In this document: in pieces, positions 17,595 to 62,842 of the stretch
Numbering within the stretch: the first letter of the stretch is position 1
Layout of the letters: every line of letters begins with the position of its first letter
Assembly (NCBI RefSeq): GCF_018873765.1
Contig: NC_057924.1
Location: 4,774,001-4,838,000 of the forward strand
Origin: Telopea speciosissima
Taxonomy: Eukaryota > Streptophyta > Magnoliopsida > Proteales > Proteaceae
DNA length: 64,000 nucleotides
Direction: 5' to 3'
Position numbers and translations under genes: made by a program
Notes under the pieces: model-generated
Database searches by the model: none
The model's input: the letters and a program-made list of their open reading frames with translations, nothing else
Told to the model about the DNA's origin: nothing

Positions 17595-35045
<17,451 letters not shown>

Positions 35046-40647: not shown

Positions 40648-40791
40648 GCTGAACTCACCCTTCCAACCTCTGCATCCCATCCTCTCAACGTTCTTTGTAT
40701 CTATAAGACACTGGCAAACAGATTTCATCACTAACCCTCATTGTAAGTTCTATTTCCTTCCATTTCCTCAAGCATTAACTCAAGTTAAACC

Positions 40792-41295
40792 ATGAAGTTG
40801 ATAAAGGTATTCTTAGTTCTAGCAGTGGCAATGGCCTTAATCATCGGCATCGCCACCGCAACAACGCCGAGCAAAGAAGATGAAGAAGAAGAAGAAGTAG
40901 ATGATGATGCCATGGAAGTGCCTGTAGAGGTGTTCGACCCTTTCAACCATTCCTTGCCTGAAAGCGAACAACCATCATCTTCTACTTCTCTAAGGGGAAT
41001 TGGTCGATTCCTGAGACAAACGAGTAGCCCCAGGCAGCAGATGACTTGCAACAGATACCCTAGAATATGCAGAGCAAAAGGTAGCCCAGGACCCGATTGC
41101 TGCAAGAAGAATTGTGTAAATGTGTACACAGACCGATTAAATTGTGGGATTTGTGGGAAGAAGTGCAATTACAACGAGATATGTTGCAGAGGTAAATGTG
41201 TCAACCCATCATTTGATAAGAAGAACTGCGGGCTATGCAACAATAGGTGCAAGAAGGGGAGATCATGTGTATTAGGGTTATGCAACTATGCTTAG
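40792..41295 (+). CDS. STIG1-like small secreted cysteine-rich protein
   Basis: An intact 167-residue single-exon gene. Residues 1-24 form a signal peptide (MKLIKVFLVLAVAMALIIGI, then ATA). An acidic spacer follows (SKEDEEEEEVDDDAMEV), then a variable serine-rich part, and from about residue 85 the STIG1 domain with 16 cysteines, including the DCCKKNC, NCGICGKKC, ICCRGKC and NCGLCNNRC blocks. STIG1 proteins are apoplastic. The Petunia/tobacco and tomato members act in stigma exudate and pollen-tube growth through receptor-kinase binding, and Arabidopsis GRIM REAPER belongs to the same family. The start is the first ATG after the TATA box. Which family member this is cannot be decided here. 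Confidence 0.92.
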   Translation: MKLIKVFLVLAVAMALIIGIATATTPSKEDEEEEEVDDDAMEVPVEVFDPFNHSLPESEQPSSSTSLRGIGRFLRQTSSPRQQMTCNRYPRICRAKGSPGPDCCKKNCVNVYTDRLNCGICGKKCNYNEICCRGKCVNPSFDKKNCGLCNNRCKKGRSCVLGLCNYA

Positions 41296-42493: not shown

Positions 42494-43839
42494 TCAAAAG
42501 GTTCGATCTTTTGAACCCACACGAATTGAGAAGTACATGAAGAGTAACGCCAAAGTAGCGGACTTGTATAAGATTGATGAGGGAATCCCATAAATTCCTT
42601 CCCGGAAAAGCCCTTTCAGAAATGGCAAGAAGCTCAACACTACCCATGTACTGCAAATGATCTCTCCAATCCCCGGACCGGACCGGCCAGGCCAGCTCGA
42701 ATCGTTTGAAAAGGCTGAACCGTCAAGCCGGCCATTGCAAGTGCAGTTAGGTGAACCAATAGGAGGGTTGTGGCCGGGACAAAGATTGGCGACTCATCGA
42801 AAGTGAACCGGCCGCTATCGGAGTCTGTACCGCCACTATCTTCGCTTGATTTGTTTTGGTCTTTCCGTGTTACTACAAAGACAGTCTCTGATATCCCTAA
42901 CAGCTTAAGAATGACAGCTAACAGCCCAAACAACTATGCTGTAGATGATTGTATCCTCGACATTTTCTGGTTGTTCCACCATGCTCGAATCGATACGCCA
43001 CATCGGAGGTAATCTGATAGGGTGCTTAGATTATAAACCATGAAAAGAGAACCAACAACGAAGAAGGCCGGTTCGGAGACCTGCATATCAAGTTACCAAG
43101 ATTTAAGAAACTATGTTGGGATGTAATTAGCAATTTATATAACATTGAAAAATTCCTGCTTACTCTTTCTCATTTGCATGTTTCATTTTTTTGGAGAAAG
43201 TTTTCCTCCACCACGGTGGAAAGTTCACCCCAAAATCCTAGGGTTCAATAACCTCATAGGATTTAGTATGTTCCCCCATATGCGCATCTGAAACCTTGTA
43301 GTCAAGGAATTCCCCTAGACTATAGACTTAGGAAAACTCGATCCTATATTTTATAGCTAGTTCTGATTTTTGTAAGACTGATACAAAGATGAACCGAGTT
43401 TTCCTCAATCTTTTTCTTTCACCGATCATTACACTTGGATGAATGCCTCGAAACAATAATAAAGGGTTTCAGACCTCCGACGTTTAAGGAGGAAGAGTAA
43501 TGATGATTTTAAATTAGTGGGTAAAGTAAATCCTTAACCGTAAGTGAAAATAAACTTTTCCTTACAATACAAACGAAACTACGATGCACGACTCAAGTGG
43601 TAGAGTGGCATATAAAAGCCATGATTATAATGACAACTTGGGGAGAGGGTTTTCCGAACAAGTGACGACAGCCTATGTATCAATGAAGAATAATGAAACA
43701 GTTTCATATATAAAGTGCAAAGAGGTCATTTCAAATTAGAAACAGAGATATATAAAGAAATAGTATACTAGTGTACCATTGACGAACGACTTAGAGAATT
43801 ATTTCCCCAACGAGTCGAGATCCTTTACCTAAGGGTGTC

Positions 43840-49877: not shown

Positions 49878-51289
49878 TTTATAAGTTCTTACCAAAACAT
49901 TCATGGCACCTGCTTTGAAATGATGCGGGTTCTTGGGCCGCTTCTCTCTAGACACATATACTAGGTGCGGCACCTCATCTGGAAGGTTTCCCTTGTTCTC
50001 CCATATGACCTGCAAATGAAATACAAAGAACAAATGAACCCTATACTTCTAATTGTTACAGGTAGTTTTTTTTTTTTTTGGATTTAATCAAGAAATGGGT
50101 TATCTACCTTGATTATGCATGGATGGTTTCTAGGATCTATTTTTGAAAAAACTTCAAATTCACCAGTCAGATCACATGGAACGGATTTCTGAGCAGCCTC
50201 TTCGATTCTTTGGTTAAGCTCTTCATATTCATTCTGTAAACTCAAAAATAGAGATGAGAGATGAGAAGATATACCTCTATTTGTTAGGGTTAGGGTTTAA
50301 GCACAAGGTTATTTAAAGCAATTATACATCTTGTTTATCAAGTTTGGAATAAACAGGTTGTTGTCTTCAACTAGTATTTATAGGAAAAACTAGAGTTTTA
50401 AGTTAGATAATACAAGATACAAATAATGGAAAGAAATTAAGATCTGGAGCTATATATTGCCTTAATCTTCTTCCATTCCCTTTGGAAATCTGACGATGAG
50501 AAATGGGAATTTGCATTGGTGGGCTCAGTAGAAAAATACATGAAAGGGGCTCTAACTTGAACTTCATATTTTTTGCAGAAAGGAACCCAAAGCTTGGCAA
50601 ACTTAGATGCTTCCACAAGAGAATAAAAGGTAAGAGGAGAAGCTCCATCATCAGAGACATAACAAGCTAGCTTGTGAGCTGGGTAGTCTACAGCCAACAA
50701 GGAAAGCACAGTGTTCACAGTGATAATTGGTGGTTCAAGAACTGAATCTGCTGTTGTCACAAACATGTCCACTGGGGGAAGCTCATCACCAGCCCTATAT
50801 AGAAAGAGTGGTTTTAGGTATTAAAAAGAGGAAGAGAAGAAGAAAGAAAGATCTGTTATCAATACCATTGTAAGAGGCGTTCAGGGTAAGTGGTGTAATC
50901 AACAGGAGTCCATCTAGCATTCATGGTGAGGATCCAGCAGAAGGTGAACCATGACTCACAGAAGAATGCAAGCTTCCAAGCTACGCCATGAACGTTGAAT
51001 GACAGTAGACGATACAAGAGGAGGAGAAGGAGGAGAAAGAAGATGATGAGATCTATAACTCTCTGAAGGGTGTTTCTAGCAGGGATTCTCTCTTGGAGTG
51101 GGAGACAGATGGGATTCGCCATGGAAAATGGAGATTGAGAATTGGTTCACACAGGGTCACTTAAGAGTTAATATCGTCCTATATATAAATGGGCAAAATC
51201 CAGGTGTCAAGCTACGTTTTCCTGCCATGCCAGTGATGCTGGCATCATCATCTCTTATGAGAACGACATTTGGCATAAGAGAGATCTAA

Positions 51290-54410: not shown

Positions 54411-54530
54411 AGGGGTTACACTCTTCTCCCATAGGGAACACTTGAGAATGACAATTGATGTCACGGACCATTTGAAATGGTTGAACCCTCAAGCCATAAC
54501 TACAAATAAGTTCACATATAAAATAGACTT
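54411..54530 (-). pseudogene. Relic of a CSL last exon and its flank
   Basis: 54461-54495 (tcacggaccatttgaaatgg, then ttgaaccctcaagcc) differs at one position from 56299-56333 inside exon 8 of CSL copy 2. 54411-54442 matches 55854-55887 just below that gene's 3' end. The two matches are adjacent here but about 410 bp apart at copy 2, so this is a deleted leftover of another duplication. Confidence 0.65.
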
Positions 54531-54617: not shown

Positions 54618-55792
54618 CGAAAATGTTTTGTACACGGTCGTGTAAACCGTGTACGAAAGTCCCCCCTTAACTTTTTGTTTTTCTTCAAAATTCTCCAAAA
54701 TTACTTTTCATTCACAATTTTCTCTCTCTCTCTATTCACGAACCTTCCAAGTGAACTTCCCACTCAATACATCAGAAACAGGACCTGCGAGACAAGCGAG
54801 GATGACCACAAAGAAGACTGTAACTCACAAAATTCCAATATTCTGAGTTGGAATGATTAGCGCAAACCATTTATCCAAATATGTGTAATTGTAATCTGCG
54901 ACCTCCGATGAAAAATTCACCTCTGGAACAGTGCAATCAAGCTTGAGCTCCCATTTTTGGCCAAGCGGTGCCCCACATGATGTCCAGATTAGAGAGGAAT
55001 TCAGAAACCCAAACGCTGGAGATGCTTCTCGATCTCTTTCCCTTTTCCTTTTCTGATTTCACTCTCAAACCCCTGATTTCTTATTCTCCCTTTCTCGTTT
55101 TCTTTTTTTTCTCTCACTCACCCTGATTTTTCATCTCTCAAATAAGAATCTGAGATTAAAAATCCAGAATTTTGGGTGATTTCATAAAACAAAAAATTAG
55201 AGTGTCAGATTGACACCAAACAAAAAATTGTTGGGTTTTTTTTCCCTCTGTGTTTCTAGGAATCCAATTATGTTTCTCTTCTCTTCTTCTCCAGGTTTTT
55301 TAGTTTATCAAAAAAACTATTGAAAACAATTTAGGAATAACAGTGATTCACTATTTAGTAATCCAATGATGTTTCTTCTCTCCTTCTTTAAGTTTTCTTT
55401 TGAAACCATCACAGCCTCTTAAGAACGTATTTGAAAAAAGGAATTGCAGAGATTTTTCTTTTGTTTCTGTAAATGGAGTTGCAGAGTACGAAACAAATGG
55501 AAGTTGTTTGGTTTTTTTTTTTGCTTCGCCGGAGACAAAAGAAGAGAGATACGGGGATGGGAATTGCAGAGATCTTTTGTTCCTCGTTTTGATTTTTGTT
55601 TTTCTCTCTCTGCTACTGATTGTTGTGGACGACGATGAAGCTGTTTCGGATTGGCTAGGCTTCATCGGAGACGGAAGAAGAGAGATACGGTGAATGAAAA
55701 GTAGTTTTAGGGAATTTTGGGGAAAAGTAAAAAGTTAAGGGGGGGAAAAGTTTCGTACACAGTTTACACGACCGTGTACGAAACCTTTCCCC
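54618..55792. mobile_element. MULE-type element with long terminal inverted repeats
   Basis: The 10-bp repeat TATAAAATAA flanks it exactly (54608-54617 and 55793-55802). The arms are about 75 bp and inverted: 'gtacacggtcgtgtaaac' (54635) against 'gtttacacgaccgtgtac' (55762), then 'ccccccttaactttttg' against 'aaaaagttaaggggggg'. Each arm also contains its own small palindrome (gtacacgg.../ccgtgtac). The 1,175-bp interior includes a duplicated 'aagaagagagatacgg' block but no recognised protein. It lies between the two CSL genes. Confidence 0.85.
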
Positions 55793-56102: not shown

Positions 56103-59100
56103 TCACAACATTTGACCTTCGGAACCCATACGCATTGAGAAGTAAATGAAGAGTAATGCCAAAGTGGCGGACTTGTACAAGATTGATGAGGGGATCCCAT
56201 AAATTCCACTTCGGAAAAGCCCTTTTAGAAATGGCAAGAAGCTCAGCACTACCCATGTACTGCAAATGATCTCTCCAATACCTGGCTCGGTCCGGCCATC
56301 ACGGACCATTTGAAATGGTTGAACCCTTAAGCCGGTCATTGCAAGTGCAGTTAGGTGAACCAATAAGAGGGTTGTGGGCGGTACAAAGATAGGCGACTCG
56401 TCGAAAGTAAACCGACCATTATCGGAGTCTATAACACCACTACCTTCGCTTGATTTATTTTGGTCTTTCCGTGTTACTACGAAGACAGTCTCTGATATCC
56501 CTAACAACTTGAGAATGACAGCCAATAGCCCAAACAACAATGCAGTAGACGATTGTATCCTTGCCATTTTCTGGTTGTTCCACCATGCCTGGACCGGTAA
56601 ACCACATCGGAGGTACTCTAATAAGGTGCTAAGGTTATAAACCACGAAAAGAGAACCAACAACGAAGAAAGCCGGTTCGGAGACCTGCATATCAAGTTAC
56701 CAAGATTTAAAAAACCATCTTAATTAGCATGTAATTAGCCAAATACAATTTTTTTTTGAATTTTTTTCCTTTTCTTTTCTTGCCATCCAAACATAGACTT
56801 AAGGAGAAGGCTCTCTAAGCAAGCGGCATACAAAGCACACCAAGTTCATGTGGGGGAAAAGAAGTCATTTTTTTTGTTTAAGGAAAAAGGTCATTCCTTT
56901 GTGGTCAGCTCATAAAACCTTTTCCCCACAGCTTATGTAAGATAGGAGTGTAAGTTTAACCCTGTTGGCCTGAGCCCGAACCCAAAGAAAAGTCTAATAG
57001 TCAATTGAGTATGAAACAAACCACTACCCAATCTCATGAGACTGGTCAATCAAGGCCAACCAGGTGCTTCCTAGCAAAAATCAGGATCAATTAGGACCGA
57101 GCTGAGCCGACAAGGTGGGACCTAGGCTGAAATATCTCAGCCTGACCTAAGGCCGGGTTGGGCTTGGGTTAAACTAAGAGGATTCAAGGTTGGGCTATGC
57201 TTTTAAAAAACCCGGCCCAATCTGGTCTTATTTCATCCCTAATATAAGAGTACGAGTGGTGCATTAATTAATACTGATTTATGGGTACGGTTTATGCATG
57301 ACAATACATGAGGTTTGATAGACTTTGATAGATACCGGGGACACAATTTGGCTCTCCTCCAGCTGTGGCGAGAGCTGGAGGATCCAGCCCAACAAGACAA
57401 GGGGTGTTTGAGTCATTTCGCCGGGGACAGACTCATGTCAGTTGATAAAAAAGCCGTGCATATCTGACAATACATTGGGGTAGTAGACTTTATGCATTTA
57501 ATACAACACATGGGCACTTTGGGTAGAATTTATGCATTTAGATTTCTATGTGCGAAATCTTTTTTTTTTTTGGGTAAATGTACGAAACTTAATTTTACCT
57601 CCCAGATGCAATTCCCAGTACCAGTACCAGTGGGTGAAAGAAAACTTAGTCCTTGTTTGGACTAATGTCTGGACTAAGGGATGGCATGCCGCTTGCTTAC
57701 GTGCATGCGGGTCAGGGGCTTGACTTTCTGGTCTAAGATAATTATTCAAAACCTTGCAATCAAATGCTTGTTAATAATTAGGGAAAAAGATTAATGTCAG
57801 ATTGTGTGGAATCTACGCCCAAACAGAGGACATGCGAAATTACCATCCCATTCTCATGAAATAAAAGATCCCTTCCATGTTGATGCTTATGCACTTGCTC
57901 TTATTGGCCCCCACGCTGGTGCAGGCCATGCAACTCAATAGCGATCTTATGCCCTAATAATTATAAGGGAGAGGATTCATCCCCACGGTGTTAGTATGGG
58001 GAGAATCTATAGGTAACATCAATGTGAATTAGTTATTGTTGGCCGTACAATTCATAGTTATTGCACTCCTGCTTATTTTTTCCTATTTAATATAAGGGGT
58101 GTTGTTCTCGGTGCCGTAGCGCAACCTGCGCCTAGGCACATGGGGGTGGACACAATGACCATCTTGCCCCCTGCACAAGTTGCCCATGTGCATGGGCATA
58201 GGCTGCGCTGCGGCACAAAGAACATTCTCCCTTAATATAAAGAAGTCAAAAGAGTACCGTAGGAAGGAAACTGGTGTTGGTGAAGATGGAGTAGGCTGGT
58301 AGTAGATTGTAGCACAATTCAGGTAGAGAACGCAGAGCCCAAATCAATATATTGAGATAGCCTAAGCATTGCCGGAACTGAAGCTTCCCAGTGAGGGTGC
58401 CGATGATTGGACTGTTGTTGCTCCATAGAATCTCAAGTAGACCAGTGGACCATCTTTTCATTTGGGTCAATGTCGTGGGCCCAGTCACGGGTGCACACCC
58501 AAGAAATGCAGATGGGTCCGGGTCAAAGTAGACCGAGTTCCATCCCTTTGTATGAATCCTCAGTCCAGTGAGGACGTCTTCGGTTGTGGAGCCGTAGACC
58601 CACCCGACCTGTTTACCCCACTGTGTATCGGACTCATAGTCACAAGCTGTGACTGAGATAGCTGCTTTGACAGAGCTCAAAAGATCTCTCGGACTATCCG
58701 GGATTTCATTCCGCACAAACAATACCCGATTCGCTGATTCCATAAATTCAGGAGAATTTCCAAATTTCACTCGAAGTGCTTCATAAGGTGATTTTCCTGG
58801 CAAAAGAAGAAAAGATATATTAAGTTGAATATCTTCACCAATGGCGATGTGACACTATCATTTAACTCTAGGTTCATTGTTAACTCTCACCCCCTATTGT
58901 TTATGGCTAAAACATCTTTCCTCAGCAAGGTTCAAAATTCAGGTATCGGACTCGGGATTGGTCATGGCCGAAACCTTTTCGGATCGGGATTGGATTGGTA
59001 AAAAAACCCCTCAAAATCATTTTTTGTACGGATCAGGTCATGTATCGGCCAAAGTTGGTGGGTGTTGTGATCTCAGGATCGGATCGGTCAAAATCGATTG

Positions 59101-62100
59101 GTATTGGTCGATATCGGTCAAGGTAATATCAAAAATAAAAAAAAATATTCAGTTGGATCGGTCAAGGATCGGATCGGATCGGCCAATCCAACCGAGTTGG
59201 GCGATCCAATCAACAATCCAGTCAAATCTTGTTGTATCGGTCAAATCTTGGGAACGGCCTTGACCGATATCGATCCGATCCGGCCAATATTGACCGATCC
59301 AATCTGATACCTCAAACCATGTTCCCCAGTCCAATATCACATGGTATGAGACATTTTACCTCAATATTGCATAATTTCATGCAATATAATAGTATCAACA
59401 CATTGACAAACTCTTCTTTTTTTAGTTTAATATAGGGAGAATGTTCGGCACAGGCTGCGACTAGATACATGGGGGTGGGCGCAATGACCACCCTGCCCCC
59501 CTGAGTGGCAGGCCCATGTGTCTGGGCGCAGCTTGCGCTGCTGCATAGAGAACATGAGCCCTATTTGTCTTTCCCATAAAAGAGAAAAAGAAAAAGAAAA
59601 AAAAAAAACATATGGGATTCAGCAAAATAAAGAAGAAGAACTACCAGTAATTGAACTCATATATCTTGCTTTAGTTTCTGTCTCATCCGGTGATAGCCCA
59701 TATATAACTTTCCTTCTATTAAAGCATCCTGATCCACCACATACAGACCCTTGTATTCCTGAGAATCCACGGCCCACAATCTGAGCACAAAATATAATGA
59801 GGGTGAAGGCAATGTTAGAAAAGAAATTAAGAGAAGATGGCAATAATGGGTGAAATGACTTGGCTGTTTCGGGTGTTTTCTTTGCTGACTCACTTGTTGT
59901 AGCAGAACCAATTGATTTCCGAATGGGTCATCTTTTGGGGCTCCATAGAACTTTTGGGGGCACAGAACAAATGCGCTTTTGCTTTCTTTCTCGAAACCAA
60001 GTAGGAGACACATTGCCATGAGAACAATCTTTGAGTTGTTTGCAAACATATCACAATCGACATTGAGCAAGAAAGGGGAGTTTGTCATCACTCCTGAGAC
60101 TCTAGTCTGATAATTTCAAAGTCAATATTGTAAGTAATATTAAGAAAATTCGTATTTTAATCAAAATAGTGAATTAAGAAGTTTGTAATCTTATTTTTTT
60201 GTCCTTTTAAGATAATATACTTCTAGGGTAAGAGATTGGTGTCTAGTTGTGTAGCGCCTGCACTAGTGCAAATTAAGACCAGTAGGAATGCTGCTGGAGC
60301 ATTTGACTGAAGTGGATTATTTAGTTCACTCGGGCTGAGCGATAATTTCGCATGATCCTATGTTTGAGCGTATGAATCACGCGACTTGTTAGCGTTCTTT
60401 TTCCCATACATTTTTTTTTTCTTTCAACGAGGGCAAATCTTGTCATTTGTATAAATATTGCAATAAATAACTTTCAAATTTTAATTGAAAATCCCTTTTT
60501 ACTCATACATTAAATATTGTATTAAATAATTTTTGAGAATAAGACAAGGAGAAATTAAAAGAAGGTTTTTTTTGGTAAGAAATCAAAAGAAGGTTACAAC
60601 CTCTTAATTCACTTCATTGCTGACAACAAGTTACACCTATTAAGTAATGAGATTGTGTGAATGACACATTATAGGTATATATAGTTGGAAAATCAGGTTT
60701 TGACTCAGCCGAGTCACCCTAGTCGAGTCAAAATTTTGGAAAACATGTTCAAAAGTCACGTAGACTTGATTAGGGTAAAAACTGGCAAGAATCAGTCACA
60801 ACCCATCCCAGTCATATGAGATTCGATTTTTGCTCGAATCACACCATAATGGGAGAGTCTATTCATTTTTTAAAACTCATTAAATTAACCCACTTGAGTT
60901 GGGATTTGGGTCCTCTATAGTGCGACAGGGAGTGTAGTGCACCATCCGATGGCCTGTAGTGCTTGGGCACATAGCCCAACACACAGGGGGGTGTTGGGCT
61001 GCGTGTCCAAGCACAACAGGCCGTTGGATGTGCGCTACATTCTCTGTCGCGAGGAGCCCAACGCCTTGAGTTGAGTAAACTATTAAACAACCTCAAAACC
61101 CTAAATTCAAGAGTTCCAATACTTGCAGTTTGCTTTGCTAAGAAAAAACCGAAACCCTTAAGGGCTGTTTATTTGGCGGGAAAAAATGGGTGAGATAGTA
61201 AGAGGTAGGGGTGGGACCCATGTGTAAAGGATAGGAAAAGTGGTTTTGGTGGTCCCACATATATAAAATAACCAATTCTCTCCATTCCTTATAAAATCCT
61301 TCTTAAAAGGGTGGGATTTTTGGAGAGGGATGGGATGAGAAAATTTAAAGCAATTTGGATCCTCTACTGCCGAGCTGCCCGACACGACCCTACTGTCAAG
61401 ACATAGTAAGGCGATAAATGATCGTCTTACACCCACTCGGGCAAGGCACTCAGACAGGGGTAATGTGATAATTTATCATTTTACTGTGTCTTGGCAGTAG
61501 AGTCCTGCCAGGCAGCTCGGCAGTAAAGGATCAGGGTCCAATTTAAATAGATAATTCCTTTTTTTTGGTAAAAATAGACAATTCCTTAAATTATGGAAAG
61601 TTGTCTCCCCATTTCTCCTACCCAACAACCAAACAAACATGGGTTTTTTGTGTTTTATGGAAAACTTGTTTTTTTTCCCACCATGTTTAAACAAAGGGTT
61701 TTTAACAAATGCCCCCTAAAAATGCTCATTTATTCAAATGCCCCCTTAATTTCAAAACATTGTAGCACTGTGGTCCAGTCCGTTTATTTGGGACATTAGA
61801 CATTAGACATTAGTTTTAAGGAATCTAATGACCAAAATGCCCTTCTAATAAAAACCCACCAAAATTAAAGAATAAAATGACCAAATTGCCCTCATCTTCC
61901 CCAAATGGTTTCAGATAGTTTTTTTTTGTTTTGCTTGATTTAATCAAGGAATGGGTTACCTTGATTATACTTGGATGGTTTCTAGGATCTATATTTGAGA
62001 AAGCTTCAAATTCACCAGTCAGATCACATGGAATGGATTTCTGAGCAGCCTCTTCGATTCTTTGGCAAAGCTCTTCATATTCATTCTGTGAACTCAAAGA

Positions 62101-62842
62101 TAGAGATGAGAGATATATGGGAAGATATAAATAATGGAAAGAAATATCTGGAGCTATATACAACCTTAATCTTCTTCCATTCCCTTTGGAAATCTGAGGA
62201 TGAGAGATGGGAATTTGGCTTGGTGGGCTCAGTAGAAAAATACATGAAAGGGGCTCTAACTTGAACTTCATACTTTTTGCAGAAAGGAACCCAAAGCTTT
62301 GCAAACTTAGATGCTTCCAGAAGAGAATAAAAGGTAAGAGGAGAAGCTCCATCATCAGAGACATAACAAGCTAGCTTGTGAGCTGGGTAGTCCACAGCCA
62401 ACAAGGAGAGCACAGTGTTGACAGTGATAATTGGTGGTTCAAGAACTGAATCTGCTGTTGTCACAAACATGTCCACTGGGGGTAGCTCATCACCAACCCT
62501 ATCACAAAGAGTGGTTTAATTAGGTAGTAAAAAAGAAGAAGAAGAAGAAGAGAGAAAGAAAGAGAGAAAGAAATCTTCTCTATACCATTGTAAGAGGCGT
62601 TCTGGGTAAGTGGTGTAATCAACAGGAGTCCATTTAGCATTCATGGTGAGGATCCAGCAGAAGGTGAACCATGACTCACAGAAGAATGAAAGCTTCCAAG
62701 CTACGCCATGAACGTTGAATGATAGTAGACGATAGAAGAGAAGGAGAAGAAGGAGAAAGAAGATGATGAGATCTATGACTCTCTGAAGGGTGTTTCTACC
62801 AGGGATTCTCTCTTGGAGTGGGAGAGATATGGGATTCGCCAT
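56103..62842 (-). CDS. CSLB: Cellulose synthase-like gene, CSLB/H clade, copy 2, lacking exon 4
   Basis: Minus-strand exons: 62842-62586, 62498-62165, 62085-61960, 60106-59894, 59780-59645, 58796-58258 and 56684-56103. All GT/AG, 2,187 bp, a predicted 728 aa with no internal stop. It begins [20 protein letters not shown] and has N-terminal TM helices, SDDG (133-136), DCD (256-258), TED (427-429), QMKRW (467-471) and a complete C-terminal TM block ending at TGA. The 117-bp exon that in copy 1 (50009-49893) encodes 39 residues ending FKAGAMNVL is absent. I read 60107-61959 and found no trace. Exons 3 and 5 join in frame. In the GT2 cellulose synthase fold the KAG segment contributes to UDP-sugar binding, so the product is probably impaired or altered. 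The parent activity of CSLB proteins is itself not settled. Confidence 0.85.
56955..57240. repeat. agcccaaccc-type repeat in CSL copy 2 intron 7
   Basis: Begins 'gtgtaagtttaaccctgt' and ends near 'aaacccggcccaatctgg'. Same word family as 44145-44570 (where 'agggttaaacttgcgcccc' closes the element) and 35725-36130. No target duplication resolved. Confidence 0.5.
58096..58231. mobile_element. Foldback MITE, 9-bp target duplication
   Basis: TTAATATAA flanks it (58087-58095 and 58232-58240). The arms pair 'gccgtagcgca' with 'tgcgctgcggc' and 'cacatggg' with 'cccatgtg'. The 136-bp insert ends 25 bp below the exon 7 donor of CSL copy 2. Confidence 0.78.
58925..59310. repeat. ggatcggatcgg-rich MITE-like stretch in CSL copy 2 intron 6
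   Basis: Dense 'ggatcgg' and 'gatatcggtca' words. The edges 'aggtatcggactcgg' and 'ccgatccaatctgatacct' are inverted. It resembles the MITE at 11783-11993 (ggtatcgg). A target duplication was not resolved. It is absent from copy 1. Confidence 0.55.
59430..59565. repeat. Foldback MITE in CSL copy 2 intron 6
   Basis: 'gggagaatgttcggcacagg' is mirrored by 'tgcatagagaacatgagccc', and 'acatgggggtgggcgcaatg' by the 'cccatgtgtctgggcgcag' side. Same family as 58096-58231. It ends about 80 bp from exon 6. Confidence 0.6.
60905..61058. repeat. Foldback element in the space of the missing CSL exon 4
   Basis: 'gggtcctctatagtgcgaca' is mirrored by 'tgtcgcgaggagccc'. 'catccgatggcctg' pairs with 'caggccgttggatg', and 'gcttgggcaca' with 'tgtccaagc'. 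It lies in the enlarged intron (60107-61959) of CSL copy 2. Confidence 0.7.
61350..61539. mobile_element. Foldback MITE, 8-bp target duplication
   Basis: AATTTAAA flanks it (61342-61349 and 61540-61547). The arms are 'ggatcctctactgccgagct' and 'agctcggcagtaaaggatc'. The inner hairpin pairs 'aaggcgataaatgatcg' with 'gataatttatcatttt', as in the ctctac family. It lies in the enlarged intron of CSL copy 2. Confidence 0.82.

Follow-up and report, generated by a model that had tools for sequence, protein, structure and literature searches.

In the 64,000-nucleotide stretch of Telopea speciosissima DNA analyzed here (the window), one gene of a tandem CSL array, g2, lacks an exon. We conclude, with a probability of about 0.86, that g2 is a recent loss-of-function copy that arose by a microhomology exon deletion near a hairpin in an eight-gene CSL array. 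The exon loss is real but ordinary: g2 is a decaying tandem copy and, because intact sister genes hold the pre-deletion state, the event is explained at single-base resolution, and a hairpin marks its breakpoint. As such, g2 provides a clean example of tandem plant gene decay, and it carries a warning for annotation, in that its in-frame 728-aa model looks normal yet is missing the donor-binding segment. Our array survey covered the window plus 106 kb of adjacent sequence on one flank and recovered at least eight CSL genes, in tandem and on one strand (g1 to g8), in an array that extends past the window. We take this subfamily to be CSLB/CSLH-like, going by sequence likeness rather than by placement in a tree.

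Gene model of g2 and its missing exon

The g2 gene (copy 2 of the first-pass annotation) occupies window positions 62842-56103 on the minus strand. It begins with exon 1 (62586..62842; 257 nt; donor GTATAG), exon 2 (62165..62498; 334 nt; VTTAD and DDG motifs), and exon 3 (61960..62085; 126 nt), which ends with ...NHPSIIK in phase 0. Alignment with g6 and g7, together with tblastn, defined the following interval (60107..61959) as a hybrid intron composed of the 5' part of intron 3 and of intron 4, without exon 4. The gene then continues with exon 5 (59894..60106; 213 nt; opening with TRVSG in phase 0 and carrying the DCD motif), exon 6 (59645..59780; 136 nt), exon 7 (58258..58796; 539 nt; TED and QxxRW), and exon 8 (56103..56684; 582 nt including the stop codon), which encodes the gating-loop motif FVVTRK and the last membrane helices. 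Every intron has a GT donor and an AG acceptor, the hybrid intron running from GT (61959) to CAG (60107). When spliced, the exons yield a 2,187-nt open frame encoding 728 aa plus the stop, and apart from the loss of exon 4 there is no further stop or frame change. The frame survives the loss of exon 4 because this exon has 117 nt and starts and ends in phase 0; with exons 3 and 5 joined in frame through canonical splice sites, the first-pass annotation was right that the flanking exons remain compatible. It was also right that the catalytic motifs are kept: reading the spliced frame by eye, we found DDG (with the catalytic D), DCD, TED, QMKRW (the QxxRW motif), and the gating-loop FVVTRK. The product matches Pfam PF03552 (cellulose synthase superfamily) at 435.1 bits over three stretches (E 7.7e-130; cut-off 24.7).

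The lost exon is represented in g1 (copy 1) by exon 4 (49893..50009, minus strand), which has 117 bp, encodes 39 residues (VIWENKGN...KAGAMNVL), and is in phase 0 at both ends. Its absence from g2 had been read from the letters alone, and our searches bear it out. In six-frame tblastn of the window under three scoring schemes, the g2 interval (61959-60107) showed no counterpart of exon 4; a diverged KAGAMN exon was sought there, and only chance-level matches appeared. Among the matches listed, copy 1's own exon came first and chance-level hits followed, the next best having E values of 0.11-0.19. A blastn search (E <= 1e-3) over 170 kb, comprising the first 40 kb of the window and the 130-kb array, recovered exactly seven copies of exon 4, and within that scope no exon 4 of g2 was present, displaced or in place. 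The sequence of window and array contains no N. Exon 4 is thus found in 7/8 array genes, g2 being the only one without it. All 39 residues of the exon are also present in a more distant copy located on a different chromosome, and exon 4 is therefore ancestral.

The seven other exons of g2 had been described as matching copy 1, and this holds in part: exons 1, 2, 3, 6, and 7 agree in length and exon 5 agrees within one codon, but exon 8 of copy 1 (42494..43080, minus strand) is broken. It carries an in-frame TAG at ~42936-42934 and a 5-bp insertion at ~42695-42691, positions that were counted from the alignment and, for the insertion, depend on it. The stop occupies a codon that reads TGG in g3, g4, g6, g7, and g8 and TTG in g2. 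The donor of the second intron in copy 1 is also GC rather than GT. Copy 1 cannot serve as an intact reference.

Sister genes and the deletion junction

The closest relatives of g2 in the array are g6 and g7, with which it groups in trees of exons 3, 5, 6, and 7 and which lie ~60 and 74 kb away on the same chromosome, measured from start codon to start codon. They have the same exon structure and the same intron 4 foldbacks as g2, are ~98-99% identical to it in coding sequence outside exon 4 (from dN and dS), and range from about 92 to 100% identity with it per 300-column window over the gene body. Unlike g2, both keep exon 4 and encode 767 aa.

These sisters decide what fills the g2 interval. 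The first-pass annotation had described it as foldback elements and unrelated DNA, and an insertion of a foldback transposon that replaced exon 4 would fit the presence of foldbacks there. The interval does contain one foldback element at 61358-61532, a second at 60943-61030, and a 488-bp segment at 60150-60637 that has, close to its ends, inverted arms of 29 nt (76% complementary). g6 and g7 carry all of these in intron 4 as well, with exon 4 intact next to them, and in g7 the match to the first covers 145/175 bases. At E 1e-8, none of the three had a match in intron 4 of g1, g3, g5, or g8, g4 lying outside this comparison. Moreover, the interval aligns throughout, small gaps aside, to introns 3 and 4 of g6 and g7. 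The description as unrelated DNA thus fails, and replacement by a foldback transposon is extremely unlikely. What lies there is not replacement DNA but intron 4 fused to what is left of the 5' part of intron 3.

Aligning g2 with g7 revealed one clean 484-bp deletion, which spans exon 4 together with the last part of intron 3 and the first part of intron 4. At the junction (61904..61911, minus strand; placed by alignment with g6 and g7) is an 8-bp microhomology, AAACCATT, with ancestral copies in intron 3 and in intron 4 and a single copy left in g2. This arrangement, a short direct repeat at both breakpoints with one copy at the junction, is that of a microhomology-mediated deletion. In g7, we counted 195,130 pairs of endpoints whose joining would delete exon 4 but spare the outer splice sites; for endpoints drawn at random among these, the probability of a microhomology of at least 8 bp is 0.0010 (0.10%). 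The right breakpoint falls in the 3' arm of a near-perfect DNA hairpin in intron 4 that is still present in g7, where it has a 20-bp outer stem and a folding energy of -27.8 kcal/mol versus -8.2 for shuffles (z -10). The hairpin spans ~69 bp (G000:C9:4909088-4909020 in g7 and 4895834-4895766 in g6), its outer stem is unbroken in g7 and has one changed base in g6, and within the 170 kb the whole hairpin occurs only in the introns of these two genes.

A double-strand break or replication stall may have occurred near the intron 4 hairpin. Repair would then have joined the direct repeat of intron 3 to that of the hairpin arm, and this joining would have deleted the 484 bp including exon 4, presumably through microhomology-mediated end joining or slippage.

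Near-identical tandem copies are hard to assemble, and the junction could in principle be an artefact, a collapse or a chimera of g2 with another copy. We consider this very unlikely. A collapse would be unlikely to leave one clean deletion with microhomology, the sequence immediately on either side of the junction is ~99% identical to g7, and g2 bears substitutions of its own in sequence free of N.

The junction is most simply read as a plain deletion. An exchange between copies may also have had its border near the deletion, since the identity of g2 and g7 is higher left of the junction (mostly 98-100% in windows at 61.9-64.3 kb) and lower, at 93-99%, further right. On the left, g2 is 99.2% identical to g7 and 93.2% to g6; in the first window on the right, it is 99.1% identical to each of them. 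We rejected an ectopic fusion of two different copies: g6 exons 1-2 group with g1, and this largely explains why g2 is closer to g7 than to g6 on the left side. The uneven closeness of g2 and g7 across the junction, together with the g1-like 5' end of g6, indicates that exchange between copies occurs in the array and limits the dating of the simple deletion that we favor.

Consequences for the enzyme and status of g2

In g1 exon 4, the lysine of the KAGAMN motif lies 24 residues before the first aspartate of the DCD (DxD) motif. CesA8 of poplar (PDB 6wlb, 8g27, 8g2j) is a GT2 relative to which copy 1 exons 4 to 6 match with an E value of 1.5e-31, and its Lys436 precedes Asp460 by the same 24 residues. 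From residue 11, exon 4 aligns without gaps to CesA chains (7d5k, 7ck1, 7ck3) up to the DxD. In CesA8, the uridine of UDP-glucose is sandwiched between Glu265 and Lys436, according to an excerpt of PMC10592267; g2 is without the segment that holds this uridine-binding lysine in CesA8. The claim that the in-frame loss adjoins the UDP-sugar site is upheld, in that the lysine's equivalent lies within the lost segment, and g2 is missing the KAG segment expected of an active GT2 enzyme.

Exon 4 probably supplies the preceding strand and helix, and the g2 product should either have a broken fold or have lost its donor site. Because the lost segment holds the equivalent of CesA8 Lys436, a dead or misfolded enzyme would be the most likely outcome. 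The first-pass annotation had left the product as dead, dominant-negative, or altered; with the lysine gone, the first is likeliest, and nothing supports the other two. Judged from the structure of a homologue, a 728-aa product deprived of the uridine-lysine segment would fail to fold or fail to bind a UDP-sugar, and g2 would be a pseudogene in the making. Set against functional-looking relatives, it carries a presumably disabling mutation, as a pseudogene does.

We also considered that the 728-aa product might have been retained as a noncatalytic partner or a dominant-negative CSL subunit. The open frame, the canonical splice sites, the retained gating-loop, DxD, TED, and QxxRW motifs, and the absence of a further stop or frame change would all suit such a role. 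In addition, from the junction to ~2.6 kb upstream of the g2 start codon, g2 is 97.4% identical to g7 (3,574-column alignment), which makes transcription of g2 plausible. The intactness of g2 is, however, equally explained by recency (dS 0.014 to g7), there is no sign of stronger constraint on g2, and the 39-residue hole in the GT-A core would make stable folding unlikely. A maintained partner is thus quite unlikely, and we think it very improbable that g2 gives a stable, expressed 728-aa pseudoenzyme that pairs with and modulates the products of the intact array genes. If it did, a one-step exon deletion would have turned g2 into a regulatory subunit.

Over 728 codons, g2 and g7 differ by a dS of 0.014 and a dN of 0.009. 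Copy-unique codons in exons 3-8 (nonsynonymous/synonymous) numbered 4/3 in g2, 8/4 in g6, and 10/2 in g7, numbers too small to reveal either decay or constraint, and hence to tell a live gene from a dead one, and for which the outgroup state is partly ambiguous. There is no excess of amino-acid changes in g2 over its intact sisters, which, with the lack of any other stop or frame change, speaks against loss of function. g2 is not decaying faster than they are, but a recent deletion predicts the same.

The surrounding array and other features

Although the exon loss had been called unusual for a GT2 synthase, what we find is a simple deletion at a microhomology, in a tandem set of eight genes of which half appear to be damaged. 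Each of the eight has recognizable exons 1-3 and 5-7. By gene models, g3, g6, g7, and g8 have intact frames of 765-767 aa, and the other four (g1, g2, g4, and g5) have apparent lesions. Both g4 and g5 contain stops and frame changes, although some of the small indels could be sequencing errors, and exon 8 of g5 was not detected. Orphan exon-8 stretches between array genes (G000:C9:4913884-4913275 and 4839918-4839689) are possibly remnants of further lost copies. The stretch comprising g6 exons 1-2 and upstream DNA (G000:C9:4896482-4898387) is 96.7% identical to g1 (4824414-4826319), and the remainder of g6 groups with g2 and g7; g6 is a mosaic gene, from gene conversion or unequal exchange.

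The array is an instance of birth-and-death evolution of CSL genes. The CslB/E/G/H/J families are described as fast-evolving with intragenomic duplications (PMC3091534), and CslB, CslE, CslG, and CslM as usually forming arrays of 2-4 (PMC9062648). The tandem duplicates, similar gene structures, and rapid evolution described there for CSLB/CSLH-type arrays are seen here as well (PMC3091534, PMC9062648); the difference is one of size, with eight genes here versus the usual 2-4 (PMC9062648). Our literature search on CSL exon skipping and in-frame deletion returned no title on CSL exon loss among the matches listed.

The window holds several other features. At 54460-54495 is a short fragment that matches 12 residues of CSL exon 8 perfectly, adjoining what appears by eye to be a long inverted-repeat element (54633-55780); the fragment could have been captured as filler DNA when a break was repaired. 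On the plus strand, at 22308-26697, are stop-broken frames that we named by eye as those of a Copia-type retrotransposon (gag, integrase, reverse transcriptase, and RNase H). An open 168-codon frame, also on the plus strand (40789-41295), presumably encodes a cysteine-rich secreted protein resembling the stigma-specific STIG1 type.
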